DNA of 64,000 nt from a virus. Of this stretch, positions 3,860 through 52,766 are shown in pieces. The notes beneath the pieces were generated by a model that searched no databases, was not told the DNA's origin, and worked only from the letters and a program-made list of their open reading frames with translations. A program made the translations under genes and the position numbers. The stretch is from IMG/VR virus record IMGVR_UViG_3300039098_000035, positions 1-64,000 of that record; one strand, 5' to 3'. Each line of letters begins with the position of its first letter. The first letter of the stretch is position 1.

Positions 3860-4054
3860 TCAGAAATCTCCAAATCCGCCATCGACTATGGTATCTTCTA
3901 ACTCTTCTATCGTGGCTTTTATATTTCCTTTAGGTGTACGTACTATCACATGTTCTTCATCTGGATCAATCTTAACATGGACTTGTACCTCACTGTTATA
4001 ATATGTCCCATCTTTCATTTTAACAAACCCTATGTTTAATAGAAACGTATGCAT
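3860..4054 (-). CDS. hypothetical protein, 64 aa
   Basis: A small beta-rich protein (HVKIDPDEEHVIVRTPKGNI) with an acidic C-terminus ending DGGFGDF. Its ATG overlaps the stop of the helicase gene (TAATG), so it is translated with the helicase. Family not recognised. Confidence 0.8.
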   Translation of the reverse strand: MHTFLLNIGFVKMKDGTYYNSEVQVHVKIDPDEEHVIVRTPKGNIKATIEELEDTIVDGGFGDF

Positions 4055-5637
4055 TAAAGATTCTTAATCTCATCCGCAAAGTACGGAGTCTCTTTAACCA
4101 TCTGCACATAGTGAGAACCATTCCTTAGAACGGGATTCATCTTAGCGATGTAAGGTCCTATAAGATTCGAGAAGCCGTTCGTTCCTTTGTTCTTTATAGA
4201 CTTTCTACCATTAGCCTTGCAGTACACCTGGTACATACGGTACAGGTCGCCACGTTTCATCTCGTCCTTAACCCGCCCTGTGAATGTGACACAATCACTG
4301 AAGAACATCCCAATGATATCACTATCTTCACGGTACTGAACAAACTTCCTAGATACCACGGCAGGTCGTGGAATATTCTTAAGGTTAATTCCTTTATGCT
4401 TAAAATAATTCTTATACAACCACGCTTGTATCGTGGGGTATTCCGCTGCCAACCTATTGAGGATGGTTGGGTCTTCCTTAGTAATATGAAAGTCAAACGG
4501 TATCAATATCAATCTTTGGAAAATCGGATCTAGAGTAGACCAATCACCAAAGTTCAGCAGACTGTTGGCCATGACAACGGGAGTCCCACAGATATTAACC
4601 TCAAAATTTTTACTATACGCGGGGCGCACCACCGTCATAATCTTGTTACCAAACTCATCACGTCCACCTTCTGTTAGATCCTTGATGTTCTGCGTAGACG
4701 CTTGCATCCTCTCGTCTATCTCGTTGAAGATGAGCAAACTACGACCCTCAGTTGCAGCCAGGGCATCGTCCTTCTTAAACGATGAAGCAGGATGTGCGTT
4801 CAGCAGCTCAGCGTTCATACGGATGGAGTGCGGACCAAGGATATCCTGCATAACCTTAATGATAGTACTCTTACCATTACGGCCTTGCTCTCCTATAAAG
4901 TAGACGTACACCTGGTTGTAGTTGTAAGGCGCCATCATATAGGCCAGCACTTTGTGAAAATACGCTATGAGCTCAGGGTCCTGCATCATGTATGTCTCGA
5001 TGAGAGATAGGAACAGGGTCGGATTAGGATCAGGCTCCAGCGATATCGGAATCGGACTGATATGTTGGAGCTGCATCGGCTGAGTATCCTTAAAGGAAAC
5101 CTTCCTTATAGCTAGAGTATGCTCCATCATGTCAAGCAGAGCACGCTGCTCGGTCCCATGAATCTTGAAGTACCGAAGATTCTCAACCTTCTGGATCAGC
5201 TCGGTACTCTTACGGACATGTAGCAGCTTGGACTGACGTATCCGCTTGGACAGATTGGGTATCTTACCTACCCCGAAGAAGTGATTGGCGTAGCGGAAGA
5301 ATATCTGGCTGTTCGCCTTGGTCGCTTCCTCAGAGATGACTGTGAAGTAATCGGTCAACAGGTTCTGCAAGCTGGCATCAGTAGTCTCGAAGTGCCACAG
5401 CCCATCCGTGTTATCGTACACGAACATGTTATCCTTATCACCTACGTAGCGGAAGTAGTTAGACAACCACGAGAATGTTTCTGTCGGTATCGGAACCGCC
5501 GACTCGGACGTAAATTTTTTCACAAACGCTTTAACCTCTGCCTCTGTCAGCGCGGAAGTATCGTTCAACGTAAAAACACCTCTTATATGTTTCAAGAGGT
5601 GTAAGCGCATAGATGTTAGATAGTTGGAAAATGCCAT
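4054..5637 (-). CDS. SF3 (D5-like) replicative helicase
   Basis: A 527-residue protein from the ATG at 5637, which has GGAGAC 8 bases upstream. In-frame GTG codons further up lack a ribosome site. The AAA+ core is clear: Walker A GEQGRNGKST (Lys about 256), Walker B SLLIFNEIDE (about 306), sensor region GTPVVMANSLLNF and arginine-finger region FQRLILIPF. This is the superfamily 3 helicase arrangement of P4/D5-type phage and plasmid proteins. The N-terminus shows no obvious primase motifs; a separate primase lies on the other arm (17435). It should unwind DNA at the origin, which fits its place beside the noncoding hub. The gene is visibly richer in G+C than its neighbours, hinting at separate acquisition. 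Confidence 0.95.
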   Translation of the reverse strand: MAFSNYLTSMRLHLLKHIRGVFTLNDTSALTEAEVKAFVKKFTSESAVPIPTETFSWLSNYFRYVGDKDNMFVYDNTDGLWHFETTDASLQNLLTDYFTVISEEATKANSQIFFRYANHFFGVGKIPNLSKRIRQSKLLHVRKSTELIQKVENLRYFKIHGTEQRALLDMMEHTLAIRKVSFKDTQPMQLQHISPIPISLEPDPNPTLFLSLIETYMMQDPELIAYFHKVLAYMMAPYNYNQVYVYFIGEQGRNGKSTIIKVMQDILGPHSIRMNAELLNAHPASSFKKDDALAATEGRSLLIFNEIDERMQASTQNIKDLTEGGRDEFGNKIMTVVRPAYSKNFEVNICGTPVVMANSLLNFGDWSTLDPIFQRLILIPFDFHITKEDPTILNRLAAEYPTIQAWLYKNYFKHKGINLKNIPRPAVVSRKFVQYREDSDIIGMFFSDCVTFTGRVKDEMKRGDLYRMYQVYCKANGRKSIKNKGTNGFSNLIGPYIAKMNPVLRNGSHYVQMVKETPYFADEIKNL

Positions 5638-5678
5638 GTCAATGTCTCCTGTCTCGGTGAATGCGATCACCTACCTTA

Positions 5679-5706
5679 ATTATACCATGAGGAAACGTGA
5701 TGTCAA
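5679..5706 (-). promoter_or_regulatory. strong sigma-A promoter for leftward operon
   Basis: On the minus strand, TTGACA (5706-5701), a 16-base spacer and TATAAT (5684-5679) with TGG just before the -10 make a perfect-hexamer extended -10 promoter. Initiation would fall near 5672, about 35 bases before the helicase ATG. Host RNA polymerase should read this site. Confidence 0.85.
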
Positions 5707-5839
5707 GCATGATTCTGTGTTTTTTCTGTGTCGCCTGTGCATTTCCCCACTGCGGGGCCAAGGTAAGCGATATAGGGTAGTTGACCAAAAGATATACTAC
5801 CAGAGAATGTGCCCTAGGTAAGGGATAAAACGTTGACCG

Positions 5840-5854
5840 GTAGTATTAGTAGTA
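5840..5854. repeat. inverted copy of the 9-bp repeat array
   Basis: GTAGTATTAGTAGTA is the exact reverse complement of the 15 bases at 5948-5962. The two could pair across about 90 bases or bind the same protein in opposite orientation. Confidence 0.6.
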
Positions 5855-5947
5855 CAAGTGTACATCTTTCTTGGAGTTATTCTGTAAAAAATGCCCAAGT
5901 ATATTATATATATACGGGAGAGAACCGAGCAGCAAAAAAGTTCTATA

Positions 5948-5974
5948 TACTACTAATACTACTAATACTACTAT
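5948..5974. repeat. 9-bp tandem repeat, three copies (TACTACTAA)
   Basis: TACTACTAA occurs twice in direct succession, followed by a third copy with one final base changed. The array overlaps one of four ATATACTAC words, so it resembles iterons bound by an initiator protein. Confidence 0.65.
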
Positions 5975-6372
5975 TGGTTAGCCACGAAGGGATTTCCCAG
6001 TGTTTCACATATACTACCCCATAAACTACATATACTACCTTGACCAATTATCGTGAATTGAGATTGATATCTCTATGGAGACAAGGAAAGGTTGACTAAT
6101 ATATATATATATATATTACCCCTAAAACACAACCCCCCAATTAAGAACCTCCCCCTACCCATACCATAAGCATAACGTACATGTATCATGCCGTAGGCAC
6201 TAAGTCTAAGATGCGACAGCTTCCGACCATCACACCAGTGACACCCTCGGAATTTCCGTGGTTAACAGTGTAAAAACACAGACTGTGTATTTATGGAGGA
6301 ACTTAACGCAAGCAAAACTTAGTAATCATTATTATACACATTGTCGATATGTCCTATGGTTTACGGGTAACT

Positions 6373-6399
6373 CAAACAAACCAAACAAACCAAACAAAC
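6373..6399. repeat. 9-bp tandem repeat, three exact copies (CAAACAAAC)
   Basis: Three perfect copies lie back to back on the plus strand, which here contains only A and C. This asymmetric tract lies about 75-100 bases upstream of TATAAA at 6475 and could favour strand opening. Confidence 0.65.
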
Positions 6400-6533
6400 T
6401 AGACACTCATGACCATCCACACCCACTACCTGCACGCCAGTGCCCCTCATCGCCCCCTCTTCGCCCACGCAGTGTATAAAACAATTACACCGTTAGTCTC
6501 TCTACTACTCTCGTAAGACCGGAGGTGAAACAC

Positions 6534-12109: not shown

Positions 12110-12487
12110 ATGAAAAAATTATTATTATTATTAATTGTACTATCGTTTACATTAGTGGGATGTGATGCTGCTGATACAGCAACACACAACCTAAAGGACC
12201 AAGCAGATAACTTCGGTTTACTCCGAAGAATCATAGTCTTTCACGGTGTAACAGGTGAAGTAACTATGGAAATTGAAGGATACTGTAGCATAACTGATCA
12301 AACTACTCAACTTGAAGTAGTATGTGAAGTAGGTAGAGATAAGTATTATATAAATTATGTACGCTTAGGTGATAATACTGAATACTTAGTAGAACAATTA
12401 GAACCTATTACTGTTAGCACTTACCATTATGTACGTAGGATCCGGCCACAGACAGCGATACCTGATATCGTTATAGACATAGAATAA
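12110..12487 (+). CDS. phage beta-sandwich lipoprotein
   Basis: A 125-residue protein with signal peptide MKKLLLLLIVLSFTLVGC and lipobox LVGC (Cys18). The mature part follows the phage beta-sandwich lipoprotein family closely: RIIVFHGVTGEVTMEIEG, a C..I pair, LEVVCEVG, then DNTEYLVEQLEP and STYHYVRRIRPQTAIPD. These proteins are exported and membrane-anchored during infection, and their job is not settled; superinfection exclusion is one possibility. It is followed by a short gene overlapping as TAATG. Confidence 0.85.
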   Translation: MKKLLLLLIVLSFTLVGCDAADTATHNLKDQADNFGLLRRIIVFHGVTGEVTMEIEGYCSITDQTTQLEVVCEVGRDKYYINYVRLGDNTEYLVEQLEPITVSTYHYVRRIRPQTAIPDIVIDIE

Positions 12488-12657
12488 TGTATGAAGTAAT
12501 TATTATTAAAGCACCTCGTACTGTACTCATATGTAACAAGGAACATCTATCACGTGTCCTTGAATTACTTAAACCTAATGCTCATGCTATGGTAGAGCGT
12601 ATTGAAATGTGTGAAAATGTATACGACTGTAGACAAGTCACACCAACAGTGATATAA
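12487..12657 (+). CDS. 56-aa hypothetical protein
   Basis: Coupled to the lipoprotein stop by TAATG. It encodes 56 residues starting MYEVIIIKAPRTVLIC, an alternating strand-helix pattern with three cysteines in its second half and first strand (C16, C42, C48). It is the last gene before the structured noncoding locus; its end overlaps the promoter there. Confidence 0.7.
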   Translation: MYEVIIIKAPRTVLICNKEHLSRVLELLKPNAHAMVERIEMCENVYDCRQVTPTVI

Positions 12658-12658
12658 T
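12630..12658 (+). promoter_or_regulatory. extended -10 sigma-A promoter for noncoding locus
   Basis: TAGACA (12630-12635), a 17-base spacer, and TATAAT (12653-12658) preceded by TGA form a near-consensus host-type promoter. It should start RNA near 12664-12666, just where coding ends and the structured region begins. Confidence 0.75.
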
Positions 12659-12663
12659 TAAAT

Positions 12664-13186
12664 TAGTAATACATCCTTTAGATGTTTACGCAACTGAACC
12701 CCCGTTAAGAGCGGCAGTATAGGGAGGAGACAATACTTACATTGTGCCCGACATTCCAATCTACGAGCATTGATTGGGTGTCACTGTATGTGTTCGGACA
12801 TTGATTAAAAAATTGCGCAGATGTCTGAGCATGTACAGTGACATGAACCTAAGAACCCATGTCGCACTTATCCCTTACATAGCATGGTGGATAGAATTGT
12901 GTAACGATAAAACGATACGCTATAGACCTATTCACACATCCCCTTCCTTAGGGTCATCGAGAGGTGGCCCTTCCTACTAACACACAGATGTATAAGACAG
13001 CAGAGCCGGCAGCTCAAGCCGCAGGATTACCGCACCACAGCAGAGTGGATTCCATTCCTATGATAGAGCAGCATCTGTTTATTATAACCATCATGGTGGT
13101 ATCGGATGTAGTTCCGATAAAGGTATATAACATGTGGTTATATACCTTCCACCATTAATATATGCCCACACATGTGGGTTATTTTT
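12664..13186 (+). ncRNA. candidate large structured noncoding RNA, about 520 nt
   Basis: The stretch has no supported gene, its own promoter at the 5' end and a terminator-like hairpin at the 3' end. Many stems can be read directly. TGTCACTGTA pairs with TACAGTGACA (10 bp, near 12779 and 12835) and encloses CGGACAT/ATGTCTG. Others include CCAATC/GATTGG, ACAAT/ATTGT, AGGGTCA/TGGCCCT, ATCGGA/TCCGAT and a perfect 12-bp AAGGTATATAAC/GTTATATACCTT (13120-13148). It lacks RNase P, tmRNA or group I intron hallmarks that I could find. Size and phage setting resemble the ornate large RNAs ROOL and GOLLD, but I cannot confirm either. It could also be a very long leader of the 13205 gene. Confidence 0.6.
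13165..13186 (+). terminator. terminator-like hairpin at end of noncoding locus
   Basis: CCCACA and TGTGGG form a compact stem followed by TTATTTTTAT. The T-tract is interrupted, so termination may be partial, letting some transcripts reach the gene at 13205. Confidence 0.6.
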
Positions 13187-13204
13187 ATATACTAAGGAGG
13201 TATG

Positions 13205-13438
13205 ATGAAACATAAATGTATCACTTCACCGAAGATTCAATTAGTATGGACGTGTGCTTACCGCTCATGTGCTGAAATAATTACGCACCAATTAACAGAG
13301 AAAGCAGAGATTGGTTATGATGTGCTCATGTTGTGTGAACAACACTTTAATACATGGAAAAAAGCGCATCCCAAAATAAAATTAGAGGAGGAAACAGATG
13401 TTAAATCAAGTAGTATTAGTAGGTCGTCTAGTCTATGA
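13205..13438 (+). CDS. hypothetical possible zinc-binding protein, 77 aa
   Basis: Two ATGs follow AAGGAGGT; the second, at 13205, has the better spacing. The protein has WTCAYRSCAE and later LCEQHFNTW, giving two cysteines plus a C-x-x-H pair that could bind one zinc. The serine-rich tail overlaps the SSB gene by 41 bases. Probably a small zinc-ribbon-like protein; function unknown. Confidence 0.75.
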   Translation: MKHKCITSPKIQLVWTCAYRSCAEIITHQLTEKAEIGYDVLMLCEQHFNTWKKAHPKIKLEEETDVKSSSISRSSSL

Positions 13439-13736
13439 CCCTGTAATTAAAACACTAGATGACGGTAGAAAAGTTATGAAGATCACCCTTGCAATTAAGC
13501 GAGGTTATAAGAACGCAGAAACAAATGAGTATGATACAGACTTTATAGTTTGTACACTATGGGAAGGCATTGCAGAAAGTACAGTTGAATACTGTAAAAA
13601 GGGTGCAACAATAGGTGTTAAAGCACGCCTTGCTCAAAGATATTTTAAGTATGGAGATAACAAAACATTCAGCTATCCTGAAATCGTTGCTGAAAAAATT
13701 ACATTCATCAACACTAAGAATAATTATGACGATTGA
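13398..13736 (+). CDS. ssb: single-stranded DNA-binding protein
   Basis: A 112-residue OB-fold SSB. The start MLNQVVLVGRLVYDP, the strand KVMKITLAIKRGY, the core TDFIVCTLWEGIAES and GATIGVKARL follow the bacterial SSB pattern. The protein stops at KNNYDD, so the long acidic tail and its hydrophobic tip, which recruit other replication proteins, are missing. A separate gene (18369) carries such a tip. It would coat single-stranded DNA during replication; in N4 an SSB also activates the virion RNA polymerase, so a link to the giant polymerase is possible. GGAGGAAACAG precedes the ATG. Confidence 0.93.
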   Translation: MLNQVVLVGRLVYDPVIKTLDDGRKVMKITLAIKRGYKNAETNEYDTDFIVCTLWEGIAESTVEYCKKGATIGVKARLAQRYFKYGDNKTFSYPEIVAEKITFINTKNNYDD

Positions 13737-17134: not shown

Positions 17135-17153
17135 GAAATGAGGTATAATATTT

Positions 17154-17438
17154 ATGAAATATGTACTCGTAAAATCTAGACATAAGCACACACAATTAAA
17201 TGGAACTGTACCCATATTTAAACAGGTAACTAACCATCAAATTTTTGATTTTGATTACCATAAAAAAATTATACATAATGTTTTAGAGCAGCATACAGGA
17301 GAACTCTTACTGTATGTAACAGGGTTAACACCTTTACTTATTTCAGTGATTAACTACTGCAGGTTATTTAAAATACCTGTAGTTTTATTCCACTTTAATA
17401 GTTCAACTCAACGTTATATACCACAGAGTATCATATGA
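17154..17438 (+). CDS. hypothetical protein, 94 aa
   Basis: The ATG lies after GAGGTATAATATTT. The C-terminal half alternates strand, helix and strand (ELLLYVTGLTPLLISVINY; KIPVVLFHFN), like a fragment of a Rossmann-type fold. It overlaps the primase gene by ATGA. Not recognised. Confidence 0.78.
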   Translation: MKYVLVKSRHKHTQLNGTVPIFKQVTNHQIFDFDYHKKIIHNVLEQHTGELLLYVTGLTPLLISVINYCRLFKIPVVLFHFNSSTQRYIPQSII

Positions 17439-18382
17439 TAATCTATCAATTAGTATTTGGTATAGATTCAGGCCAAGTTAACTGTGTGTTTCACCCTGAT
17501 ACCAGGGCATCAGCAGGTATCAGTAACATAGGACAATTTAACTGCTTCACATGTGGAGCTAAGGCACACAGTCCTGTAAGTTTTGCGTCTCGATACTTTG
17601 GTATCGGATCAGAGCGTGCCAAAAGAATTAGTAATTCATTGGACCGTATACAAAAATATAAATATAAACAAAACCCTATTGAACCTGACCAACGTGCATA
17701 CCTACAAGCCTGTGGTATAAGCGATACTGTAATAGATAAATTCTTTTTCAGTTCGTCAGTACACAAACTAATATTTAATCATACTTGGAATGGTATGTCT
17801 ATAGGTTATACATGGTTCAATGATCCTATCTTAAAAAGCCACAACGCAGGTGCGCCAAAGTATAAGTACGACAGGAATAATATAGGAGGTATGGTTACAC
17901 CCTATGATTCAGCTGAACGATACAATACTTTAGTTGTGTGTGAAGGTGAGAAGGATATGTTAACAGCGCTATCAATGGGAGTTGTTAATGCAGTAGCAAA
18001 AGTAGGTGGAGCAAAATCCTACATTATGGGTGGGCGTAACTTTGAAAACAAAAACATTATCATAGCTTATGACTGTGATAAGTATGGTAGATTAGGAGCA
18101 GAGCAAGATGCTACGCTATTAACAAACCGCTTCAACTGTAAAGTAAAAGTAATAAACTTAGGCTTACAAGATAAGGAAGACTTGAATGATTACTTCATCA
18201 AGTATGGGCACACGGTCCAAGAATTTAATACCCTTATTAAAGCAACACCTATATTTGTACCAGTACCAGTGGTACCTCATGAAAAACTTCTAACGTATGT
18301 TAATGGTCTATCTGCGGATGACATAGACACACTAGAAAATATACTAAAAGAAAAGAAGGAGAAAGACAATGTCAAAAATTAG
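17435..18382 (+). CDS. DNA primase, zinc ribbon plus Toprim
   Basis: A 315-residue primase. A compact zinc ribbon uses C17, H20, C37 and C40 (CVFH ... CFTC). The Toprim domain shows LVVCEGEKDM (E170) and IIAYDCDKYGR (D213, D215), the catalytic acid pair of DnaG-like and T7-like primases. No helicase motifs follow, so unwinding depends on separate proteins (the SF3 helicase at 4054 or the SF2 helicase at 19124). It should make primers for the polymerase three genes downstream. The C-terminal tail is coiled and charged and overlaps the next gene. Confidence 0.93.
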   Translation: MIIYQLVFGIDSGQVNCVFHPDTRASAGISNIGQFNCFTCGAKAHSPVSFASRYFGIGSERAKRISNSLDRIQKYKYKQNPIEPDQRAYLQACGISDTVIDKFFFSSSVHKLIFNHTWNGMSIGYTWFNDPILKSHNAGAPKYKYDRNNIGGMVTPYDSAERYNTLVVCEGEKDMLTALSMGVVNAVAKVGGAKSYIMGGRNFENKNIIIAYDCDKYGRLGAEQDATLLTNRFNCKVKVINLGLQDKEDLNDYFIKYGHTVQEFNTLIKATPIFVPVPVVPHEKLLTYVNGLSADDIDTLENILKEKKEKDNVKN

Positions 18383-18824
18383 TTTACAAGACATCTTAGT
18401 AGAAGATGCAAAGAATGCTAAGTCATCAGACTTCATTCAAGATACATTAGCACCAGGTAAATACCAGATACAAGTCTTAGAATTTGTAGAGGAAGATACG
18501 TATCAATATATTTCAACAATAGTTAATAAGAAAAAGTATAACTTCTTCTATAACTATTATCTAAAAGATTCAACAGATCTTAATGCGGATACTATTAATT
18601 TTATTAAAGCGTTAGCTACTGTTGCAGTAACCGCTAAGACTACTCTATTAGAGATTGCTAATTCAGCTATCGGTTCTACCTATGAAGTTGAAATTTATAA
18701 CTACGTATCTAAGAGTGGTAAAAATAAAGGAAAGACTATGCATAACATTAATTACAGAGCATTACCTATACGTACAACAACTCAAGTTAATATTGATGTA
18801 GTGGAGGACGACCTACCTTTCTAA
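18369..18824 (+). CDS. SSB-tailed putative ssDNA-binding protein
   Basis: A 151-residue protein with beta-rich central strands (GKYQIQVLEFVEEDTYQYIS; GSTYEVEIYNYV). It ends VVEDDLPF, the acidic-hydrophobic tip typical of bacterial SSBs (consensus DDDIPF) that binds replication proteins. The fold looks like an OB-type or DUF669-like barrel, though I cannot be sure. Its place between primase and helicase supports a replication scaffold role. It may supply the recruiting tail that the OB-fold SSB at 13398 lacks. Confidence 0.78.
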   Translation: MSKISLQDILVEDAKNAKSSDFIQDTLAPGKYQIQVLEFVEEDTYQYISTIVNKKKYNFFYNYYLKDSTDLNADTINFIKALATVAVTAKTTLLEIANSAIGSTYEVEIYNYVSKSGKNKGKTMHNINYRALPIRTTTQVNIDVVEDDLPF

Positions 18825-26164: not shown

Positions 26165-26470
26165 ATGTTACTACATGTATTATTAAAAGTATTAGATTTA
26201 ACATCTATATATACATTTAAACTAGATAATAAAGAATATTCTCTTAGGTATCTTCGAGATAATTATGACACAATAGATATTGTACGGGCTAGAATTACTG
26301 TTGAACATAGAACGTTATTCAAAGAAGACATTAGTATTTTATTAGATGTTGATAACTTAGAACACCTGGATAAATATACTGATGCTGAAATTATAATCCC
26401 TGAAGCATCTATCTATGCTCATATGGTACTAAATATATTCACAGATATAAAGTATATACCCACAGTTTAA
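26165..26470 (+). CDS. hypothetical protein, 101 aa
   Basis: The ATG at 26165 follows GGAGGTATTGTAC; the in-frame TTG upstream overlaps the ribosome site. The protein mixes helices and strands (LLHVLLKVLDLTSIYTF; DISILLDVDNLEHLDKY). It is the last gene of the rightward operon. Unknown. Confidence 0.8.
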   Translation: MLLHVLLKVLDLTSIYTFKLDNKEYSLRYLRDNYDTIDIVRARITVEHRTLFKEDISILLDVDNLEHLDKYTDAEIIIPEASIYAHMVLNIFTDIKYIPTV

Positions 26471-26512
26471 ACCATATGCCATGTGTTTCTACGATTCAGG
26501 GTATATATAAAT

Positions 26513-26551
26513 AACCCCTTACTCTTATGAGTAGGGGGTTTATTTTTTTTT
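26513..26551. terminator. bidirectional terminator between convergent arms
   Basis: AACCCCTTACTC and GAGTAGGGGGTT form a 12-bp stem (one G-T) with a TTAT loop. Rightward, a TATTTTTTTTTAT tract follows, which is strong. Leftward, AT-rich sequence (TTATTTATA) follows, a weaker tract. The giant gene's stop (26550-26552) is embedded in the T-tract, so both arms end here. Confidence 0.92.
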
Positions 26552-29500
26552 ATCTCATTGCTTGTGACTGACGATGACGTACGTACTGTTTCCATTGTAT
26601 GTCTTTAACTAATCCTATTGGATCTACCTTAGGTTGTCGCATACGTCCGTACTTATTAAACCAGTTCTTATATATATTTTCATATCGTTTGTATCTACCG
26701 TTATTGTTTCTATACTTATAAGGAGTGTATTTATTGTTTCCTTCACTGTAATTATATAAGAAGTTAAACGTATTTCCTAGTGTACGTTCTCTCTGTTGTA
26801 CAGGTTTACGTACCCCAGGAGTAGGTGGTGTTACATTACGAGGCCCTAGTGTATTAGCTGACCTTGTAAGTACGCCTACTGTAGCTAAATTCTTCATAGC
26901 TTCTCCTACATCTTTAGTTGTTGCTAATGTGTGCAGAGATCTAAGTATTGGATTACGTCTTTGTTCTATAGTAGCTGCAGTGTTATTGAGAATGTTCTGT
27001 ACATCGTATAGTCCAAATCCTAAACGAAGTCCTACGCCTCCTCCTACAGGTAGCCAACCATTCATAATTTGAAACTGTTCATACTGATCATATTGTCCAT
27101 CTTCATCTGCATATTGTCCATATACGCCATCAACTATATCACTGATTAATCTATTGTATGATGGATCAAGCATTCTATCTAACCAGTTATCAACTGTACG
27201 TATTGGGAAAGATAGGTATGGTATATCTGCAAGTAGCTGTGTTTCTACAGGTGTACGTTGTCCATAATTAAACCAACGTTTTAAAGATCTGTTAACTGTT
27301 TCATTAAAAGAGTATCCATATAGGTATCTATCAAATAGAAACCCACCTATACGTGCAGTATTTTCAATGGTCTCATTCATGTTCGCGTATAATTTATAAG
27401 GTTGGAATGCAAGTTCAGCTAATTTATTTTCAAAAGTACGTGAAGCATCGTTAACTTCTTTTGAAACTTCTTCATATGTTTTATCTGTTGTATTGTTGAA
27501 GTTGTCTGATACACGTTTCTCTACAATACGTCTTAAGTATGTGTAGTGTTCTTGTTTGTATGTATCTATCTGTGCATTTGTTTGCATGAATGCAGAAATT
27601 TCAAATAGAATATGTTCTACATCATTGTATATTGGTTTATCTTTTTTACCTTTGTCTTTGTTATATTTTTCCATCCATTTTTTTATACGTTTACGGGGTT
27701 TGTTTGGTGTGCTAGGGTCGAACATTAAGGAATCATGTAGTGTTAAGTATTCTGCAAAGTTAATGTTAAGTATAAATGCAGCACTGTCTTTAATATCTTT
27801 ACGTCCATCTAATACTTGTAGTTTTTCTTTAGCTTTAAACCTAAATGTAGGGTCTTCTATTTTCTCAATTTCTTTTAAGTTTTTAAATCCAACAATATCT
27901 TTAACTACAAAATTCATAAGAGTGTCTAAACTTTTTAATACTTTAGTAGCTCTGTCAGACCTGTGCTTAATACGCGATTTAACATTGTTGAGTTTTTTAA
28001 CACCTTCAGTGTAGCTGTATATTCTATTGCGAATATCTACTAAATTTTTAACTAATGTAATAGCATCATTGTGGGTAATACTACCGTGGTTGTTTTTAAT
28101 ACGAGTAAATACTTGTTGCATTTCTTCAAATTTACTTTTGATATCTATCTGTACTGTTAATCTTTCTTCATATACATCTTGGTAAAGTTTATATAGTTGT
28201 CCAGTAAGCCCTGTAATTCTAAGTATTTCTGGAGCTTTTGTTATGGTACCGTATAATCCTTCTTGGGTGTATAGTTCACTGTATATTTGTGTCCATGTAT
28301 CCATGTAGTTACGGAACAGAAAGCCTAGTGATAGTCTCATCATAAGTTTTTGAGAATACTGTAACGAAGATACTAAATCAGGTATCATACCTTTACCTTC
28401 TAATCTTGCAGGTTTGTATGCAATATCATATGAACTCATAAAATCATCTAAGGTTACAAATCCTATACTTAATTCTTCTGTTGTATTATTATTCTTCATA
28501 TGATCTTCCATCATCTTTAATACTCTAGCAAAATCTTCAGGAGTTTTAATATTAATTTCTTTTAATGTAGGTGACACATCATCTTTAAAATCTATACCGT
28601 TAAGGTCTACTGTTTTATAACGCTTACCGTTAATTTTAATACCGTCTTCTTTAGTTATACCTTTGTTTAAATCTTTCACATACTTTATAATGTCTTCAAA
28701 CGAATCGAAGCGAGTAGTTTTTCTATGTTTATATATATTCCAAGGCATCATCTTAGCCCAGTTAGATTTGTTATCATACTCTGTAATGTTTTTCCTTAGT
28801 TGATCTCCAAGATTTCTTACTAAAGTTTCATTATCATAGGCATCCATTACCACTGTTAACCTTAAGAACTTTCGGTTTCCTCTGTAGTAATCGAATAATT
28901 TATCCCAGTCATAGGTGTCGTCATCGTTTTTAAACAATGAAGCCATTGTTAAGAATGGTGTTTGATACTTTTGCATGTTCATTAAGTTTGTATCTTTAAT
29001 TTTTTGTACATCTTTACTGGTAAACTCTGGGTCATCTCCTATATATTTAGGTGCGTTTTCATAAAGATCGAATATAGTTCTACCTTTAGGGTCGTGTAGT
29101 AGGAACGTACCTTTACTGAAACTTTTACTGAATGCTGCTTTAGCTGTAATCTCTTTCATCTTTTTAATCTTACTTCTAACTTCTTTTTCTTTAGCGTTAA
29201 GGTCAGCTATGTGTTTAGTAACGTCTTTATTTTTATCAATGTAAGCTATAGCTTTGTCTTTATGTGTAACGTCATCTTTGATGTGTATTATTTTACCACG
29301 TATGTTAAGTAATTCTGCTGATAATTCTTTTAACTCTTGCTCATTTTGTTTATACATAGTATATGCTGTCGTTATTTCTCTTATTGAATTTCCTACATTA
29401 TGATAACTAAATTTATTACGGTTAGCTATTTTAATTTTGATATCGTTAGATGATAACTTTTTAATTCCGTCATCATATTGCTCTGCTTTGTCACCATGTA

Positions 29501-51934: not shown

Positions 51935-52645
51935 ATGAATTATTTACGAAGAATTGTAGTACCTTATGCTGAACGTGATAAAGCGTACATAGCATTGAAT
52001 ACCCTTAGAGGTCCTGTACATGCGGACAATGTACTGATTAACAAGTTACCGTACACAGTGTTTAAAGCAATGGGGATAGCACCTATCATATTGCAGAAAG
52101 ACATAGTGACTATGGCACGTAATGGAACGATACCTCTAGAAGAAGTAATACGTAGAGCTATCATTGCATCTGACTTAGACATTGGAGGTACTGTGTTAGT
52201 AGATGCTTCTGACTTGGCAGCAGTTACAGAGGAGACAGCAGGAGACTATGCTGTAACATGTACCGCTACAGATCCTTGGGACGGTACAAGTACTATTGAA
52301 TTTATAGTACGTGTTATTGATGCAACTATTGCATTGATTACTTTAACCGCAACCGCTATAGATATTGAAGATCAAAACGTAGCGGCATTTGATCCTACAG
52401 CGAATATTGCTTCAGCAGTAGATGATACAGACGATGTATCAGCTAGTGTATTACTTACATTTAAAGAAGATGATGCTGCGGGTGCAGATATATTTGACAC
52501 CGATTACGCAGGTAGTTTAGCGTTAGCTAAGACACATCTAGGTACTGAAACAAATAAAGTATTTGTAATGTACAATTACTCAGATGCTTCAGGAAACCCT
52601 GCAGTAGAAAAAACTGCAACGTGGACAGCAATCGCAGATACATAA
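51935..52645 (+). CDS. Ig-like domain protein, lone plus-strand gene
   Basis: A 236-residue protein. After an N-terminal mixed segment (about 1-80) come two beta-sandwich, Ig-like repeats: VDASDLAAVTEETAGDYAV ... TIEFIVRVID, then IDIEDQNVAAFDPTANIA ... WTAIADT. These resemble DUF5011/HYR-type bacterial Ig modules, and repeat one ends as typical Ig-like phage decoration domains do. It has its own promoter, a purine-rich ribosome site (AGAGAGAGAGGAGAAATT) and a terminator, yet points against every neighbour. It may be an accessory (moron-like) surface or capsid-decorating protein. Confidence 0.87.
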   Translation: MNYLRRIVVPYAERDKAYIALNTLRGPVHADNVLINKLPYTVFKAMGIAPIILQKDIVTMARNGTIPLEEVIRRAIIASDLDIGGTVLVDASDLAAVTEETAGDYAVTCTATDPWDGTSTIEFIVRVIDATIALITLTATAIDIEDQNVAAFDPTANIASAVDDTDDVSASVLLTFKEDDAAGADIFDTDYAGSLALAKTHLGTETNKVFVMYNYSDASGNPAVEKTATWTAIADT

Positions 52646-52649
52646 AATT

Positions 52650-52678
52650 AAAAGAGACCTAATCGGTCTCTTTTTCTT
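52650..52678 (+). terminator. terminator of the Ig-like gene
   Basis: AAAAGAGACC and GGTCTCTTTT form a 10-bp stem with a 5-base loop, followed by TTCTTTT. The stem overlaps the end of the opposing 35-aa gene and is symmetric enough to stop leftward transcripts too. Confidence 0.88.
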
Positions 52679-52766
52679 TTGCTTCTACATTAGATTCAAT
52701 GTACTCTAATACTTCGGCATCGACAAGTTCCCCTGTCTGAAGATCGTAACGTAGCTGATAATTCAT
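52659..52766 (-). CDS. 35-aa acidic peptide
   Basis: A 35-residue frame (MNYQLRYDLQTGELVDAEVL...) starts after AATAGGAGGGCACT, which overlaps the stop of the lipoprotein gene. The Glu-rich C-terminus is encoded within the terminator. The strong ribosome site supports a real gene. Function unknown. Confidence 0.68.
   Translation of the reverse strand: MNYQLRYDLQTGELVDAEVLEYIESNVEAKEKETD

Follow-up and report, generated by a model that had tools for sequence, protein, structure and literature searches.

A gene-free, heavily base-paired locus of a tailed phage as a candidate large non-coding RNA

Positions 12664–13186 of the window, which covers 64 kb from the start of an 81,831-base virus record, are rich in stems and poor in coding signal, raising the question of whether this stretch specifies a free-standing RNA and, if so, to which kind of phage RNA it should be likened. 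The record carries genes for a divergent terminase large subunit, a major head protein, a family A DNA polymerase, a primase, an SNF2-type helicase and a single-stranded-DNA-binding protein (SSB), a set that places it among the tailed phages. Among annotated phages, SV21 and API480 of Paenibacillus larvae come closest, with approximately 30% identity in polymerase and terminase, and from these relatives we infer a host in the Bacillota. Closer relatives, at least six records, were retrieved from IMG/VR with protein alignments as queries: G001 and G002, whose polymerases are 64 and 62% identical to that of the record, respectively, among the matches listed, and four more via the DUF5906/D5-like protein at 4054–5670. 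Whole-record comparison covered G001 and G002 out of these six.

A gap with promoter-like and terminator-like ends

The earlier note had described 12664–13186 as a stretch without genes. Indeed, no ORF inside it has a positive codon score (−6 to −15, versus +8 to +65 for most neighbours, from a rough scorer that overlooked ORF56, ORF78 and the D5-like gene as well), and none matches a protein family. The further claim that such a gap is exceptional on this arm is nearly right, except that a second one exists at 5671–6524, where a putative origin lies. The features of the locus and its surroundings are as follows.

12630–12658, + strand: sigma-70-type promoter, TAGACA-17-TATAAT with TG extension, overlapping the ORF56 stop codon
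12665–13186, + strand: candidate structured RNA of about 520 nt, proposed from its fold z score, the strongest 300-nt structure signal sampled, the lack of a coding ORF and the lack of an Rfam family
12756–12777, + strand: hairpin of 6 bp with a 10-nt loop, pair probability 0.99
12778–12844, + strand: 25-bp hairpin with 6 G-U pairs and a 17-nt loop, −36.1 kcal/mol alone, exceeding shuffles
12884–12939, + strand: two-part hairpin (3+8 bp, then 5+2 bp), pair probability 0.83 for the outer 3 bp and 0.96–0.99 for the rest
12950–12971, + strand: hairpin of 9 bp with a tetraloop, pair probability 0.98
13093–13155, + strand: perfect three-way junction with arms of 7, 7 and 12 bp and zero unpaired junction bases
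13164–13186, + strand: weak terminator-like hairpin (hairpin proper 13164–13179) with an interrupted T run
13202–13438, + strand: ORF78, first downstream gene, with an AAGGAGG ribosome site and no family
13398–13736, + strand: SSB gene (PF00436), second downstream gene, no match in G001 or G002

The near-consensus promoter reported to end at 12658 is present, with 11 of 12 consensus bases, and is the best on the + strand of the arm; judged from its −10 position, transcription would be expected to start at about 12665. Promoter-like sites with at most one mismatch number 6 in the genome versus 5.6 in shuffled sequence, no excess, so that the position of the site at 12630–12658 rather than its quality is suggestive. 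Most of the other sites (17121, 51880, 76051 and 5706) lie shortly upstream of same-strand genes, and several of them are for this reason probably real. Additionally, the unusual −35 TAGACA, the 17-base spacer and TATAAT are common to the sites at 12630 (+), 17121 (+) and 80727 (−) of G000, perhaps one promoter class of the phage.

Whereas the promoter-like site is good, the terminator-like site is weak. Specifically, the hairpin that had been placed at 13165 is found at 13164–13179, but has only 6 pairs (−9.3 kcal/mol), and other terminators predicted in this genome (near 6761 and 26540) are stronger. Because of this weakness, read-through into the ORF78–SSB operon, which begins 22 bases past the hairpin, is likely.

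Among other genes of the window, the lipoprotein-like one at 12110–12487 (+) has matches to PF25682 (Phage_VG64) and to phrog_478, whose name, recombination directionality factor, is put in doubt by the lipobox-like start of the gene product. The gap at 17135–17434 was considered as a second RNA and rejected, as it reads as a gene (ATG at 17154). A single ORF of 7596 aa at 26550–49340 (−) holds a GGDNDGD motif near residue 5782 that is reminiscent of a catalytic motif in phage-encoded RNA polymerases; two stretches of this ORF were searched and gave no Pfam match above cut-off.

Stems and folding of the locus

At least seven stems had been noted from the sequence, and ten helices are predicted at a mean pair probability of at least 0.95. 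The nested TGTCACTGTA/TACAGTGACA pairing described previously turns out to be part of a single 25-bp helix (arms 12778–12802 and 12820–12844); in 200 dinucleotide shuffles no stem exceeded 17. The apical loop of this hairpin contains the self-complementary TGCGCA (12814–12819), by itself no evidence of multimers. The perfect 12-bp hairpin also stands, at 13120–13131 and 13137–13148, where it forms one arm of the three-way junction. That junction consists of Watson-Crick pairs only and is equally stable on the − strand, and it does not, therefore, speak for RNA. A small pseudoknot considered at 13003–13021 was unconvincing, its loops being too short.

Compared with shuffled sequence, the locus folds better than chance on the strand that the promoter would transcribe, with a z of −6.15 on the + strand and −2.29 on the − strand. 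The interval 12651–12950 (+) has the lowest z of a genome scan (−7.99, 20 shuffles), in which 300-nt windows average −0.8 with a standard deviation of 1.3; because the scan of the 82-kb record combined 408 strand-windows at 400-base steps with a finer series around the locus, which gave extra chances there, this lead is somewhat flattered. The strand-specific signal is concentrated in the 5′ 205 bases (z −5.3 on + versus −1.4 on −), an asymmetry that stems from G-U pairs, and the far better folding of this part as the + strand favours an RNA on the promoter's strand. Folding of approximately 13001–13090 is at chance level (z −0.9). In a cruder scan of energy against G+C alone, the locus is no genome outlier, 12901–13300 (−) ranking tenth, which indicates that part of its stability reflects raised G+C (about 0.42 at the 5′ end versus 0.33–0.35 in most flanking genes). 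The second strongest fold signal of the scan, at 52401–52700 (z −5.9 and −5.7 on the two strands), surrounds convergent gene ends. Taken together, the statistics, the strand asymmetry and the position support the reading first suggested, a locus that specifies a structured non-coding RNA from a promoter of its own, and a functional structured RNA best accounts for stem length, asymmetry and position.

Such an RNA need not be free-standing. The locus could instead form the 5′ leader, structured and very long, of the ORF78–SSB operon; the promoter would then serve SSB expression, with the three-way junction and the weak hairpin acting as an attenuator, a stability element or a translational switch. 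In line with this, the ORF78 ribosome site begins right after the hairpin, which is itself weaker than the terminators predicted elsewhere in this genome, the operon is on the correct strand, and 13083–13091 could pair alternatively with 13134–13142. However, a leader of 540 nt would be unusually long, a large share of the structure is over 200 nt upstream of the gene, and no Rfam riboswitch or leader family matches; we regard a leader as rather unlikely, though a serious contender.

A role at the DNA level, with the perfect inverted repeats as protein-binding sites or cruciforms in replication or recombination, would account for the three-way junction, given its equal stability on both strands, and would suit the adjoining single-stranded-DNA-binding gene. 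It does not account for the G-T-rich long stem, which sits in a domain that loses much of its stability on the other strand; moreover, the window shows no surplus of the 12-bp arm outside the locus and a more typical putative origin is at hand at 5671–6524. We therefore hold a DNA element to be improbable.

Relatives and the accessory character of the locus

The gap beside the D5-like primase/helicase gene recurs in G001 (approximately 26270–27038) and G002 (approximately 73550–74394), and TATACTAC/ATACTACTA direct repeats, an (AT)n run and C-rich stretches follow in an order common to the three phages, on which basis the gap is a putative replication origin. In sister phages, a conserved non-coding element of about 140 nt adjoins their putative origin, at the following places.

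L144, 6752–6890, + strand: the ~140-nt element
L150, 14078–14217, + strand: the ~140-nt element
L217, 8582–8720, − strand: the ~140-nt element
L218, 8327–8470, − strand: the ~140-nt element

Across these four sequences, 5 of the 38 predicted pairs differ at both positions yet keep their pairing, and the element, which an Rfam search at E up to 1 left unmatched, is possibly a second unclassified phage RNA. Like the locus, it is structured, non-coding and in the early region; unlike the locus, it has another sequence and another fold. A model of the element found nothing significant in the window, its weak match at 6172–6320 lying in the same relative place, and homology with the locus was rejected on that ground.

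Searches of phage and plasmid DNA yielded no homolog of the locus, the matches at E up to 10 being short and attributable to chance (24–30 bases among those listed). The six related IMG/VR records likewise gave no significant DNA match, the best weak one being 29 bases in G010 (E 0.02). An exact pattern from the 5′ part found no matches; one from the G+C-rich part found 17 contigs, each sharing just the pattern or little more, and a resemblance in L051 (E 0.03) was rejected because it falls in apparent coding sequence. A single-sequence covariance model of 12884–13022 recovers only itself, and a search for antisense targets within the phage returned only the inverted repeats of the locus and weak matches.

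Neither ORF78 nor the SSB gene has a counterpart in G001 or G002. Of the two SSB-like genes in the window, the one at 13398–13736 is accessory, and the one at 18369–18824 is common to G001 and G002. Since the locus, ORF78 and the extra SSB gene are all missing from the compared relatives, the locus is part of an accessory block. A decayed gene or recent insert with fortuitous inverted repeats and no present function would fit this absence from all six relatives and the chance-level folding of 13001–13090, but it is the least probable reading given nearly perfect stems longer than in any shuffle, a promoter in place and residual ORFs that resemble no protein family.

A free-standing RNA and its comparison with known phage RNAs

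We give about an even chance to the locus specifying a free-standing RNA, about 520 nt in length, structured, non-coding and made early. This is preferred over the SSB leader because of the length of the locus and because most of the structure is far from the gene, a tentative preference given so weak a terminator. On the free-standing reading, host RNA polymerase would start at about 12665 from the locus's own promoter, transcription would mostly end after the 13164–13179 hairpin, and the folded RNA would then act in trans, the RNA, ORF78 and the extra SSB together forming an accessory block in the variable early region of the phage; transcription, termination and action in trans are all inferred. 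As a guess by analogy with ROOL- and GOLLD-class RNAs, which are characterised by homo-oligomeric RNA cages and to which it bears no sequence relationship, it may be a multimer-forming or factor-binding RNA during takeover.

The earlier note had named ROOL and GOLLD as candidates and proposed an Rfam check that included tmRNA and RNase P. Across the whole window, none of the 4227 families of Rfam 15, those two included, matched at the gathering score, and relaxing the limit to E 10 brought up chance matches alone, such as mir-392. The ROOL covariance model (RF03087, gathering 99.1 bits) gave no match even at E up to 10, and a direct ROOL search was equally silent in control genomes, so that it is without a positive control by itself. 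The GOLLD model (RF02032, gathering 150 bits) and a direct search were likewise empty, and ARAGORN found no tRNA or tmRNA on the record. The candidacy of both classes thus falls away.

A tentative proposal, which we think somewhat unlikely, is that the locus represents a new class of large structured phage RNAs without sequence kinship to ROOL, GOLLD or OLE, one that travels with an accessory SSB gene and works as RNA, perhaps in multimeric form. GOLLD, ROOL and the ICP1 transcript, all large structured phage RNAs, remain without known function (for ROOL and GOLLD, PMC12286853), and a further candidate that lies outside described families, is accessory and is small enough to make and delete would offer an independent case, though one sequence lacking homologs is not enough to found a class.

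The locus resembles ROOL in its similar length (the model has 574 positions), its phage-borne and multi-hairpin nature and its lack of an ORF, but differs in giving no model match and in sitting on a record without tRNA genes; proximity to tRNA islands is typical of ROOL, not obligatory (PMC12286853). With GOLLD it shares the character of a large structured phage RNA of unknown function, but it has neither a match nor tRNAs and falls short of many GOLLD members, which exceed 800 nt. Phage ICP1 produces an orphan non-coding transcript of approximately 800 nt from an ORF-less gap with no neighbouring tRNAs, seen by RNA-seq (PMC7567579). Our locus, predicted here from sequence, is likened to that transcript by description, not by sequence: both occupy an ORF-less gap away from tRNAs. 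ICP1-like records, if present in the phage collection searched, yielded no match to the locus. Because the ICP1 RNA also lacks nearby tRNAs, their absence here is compatible with a similar role.
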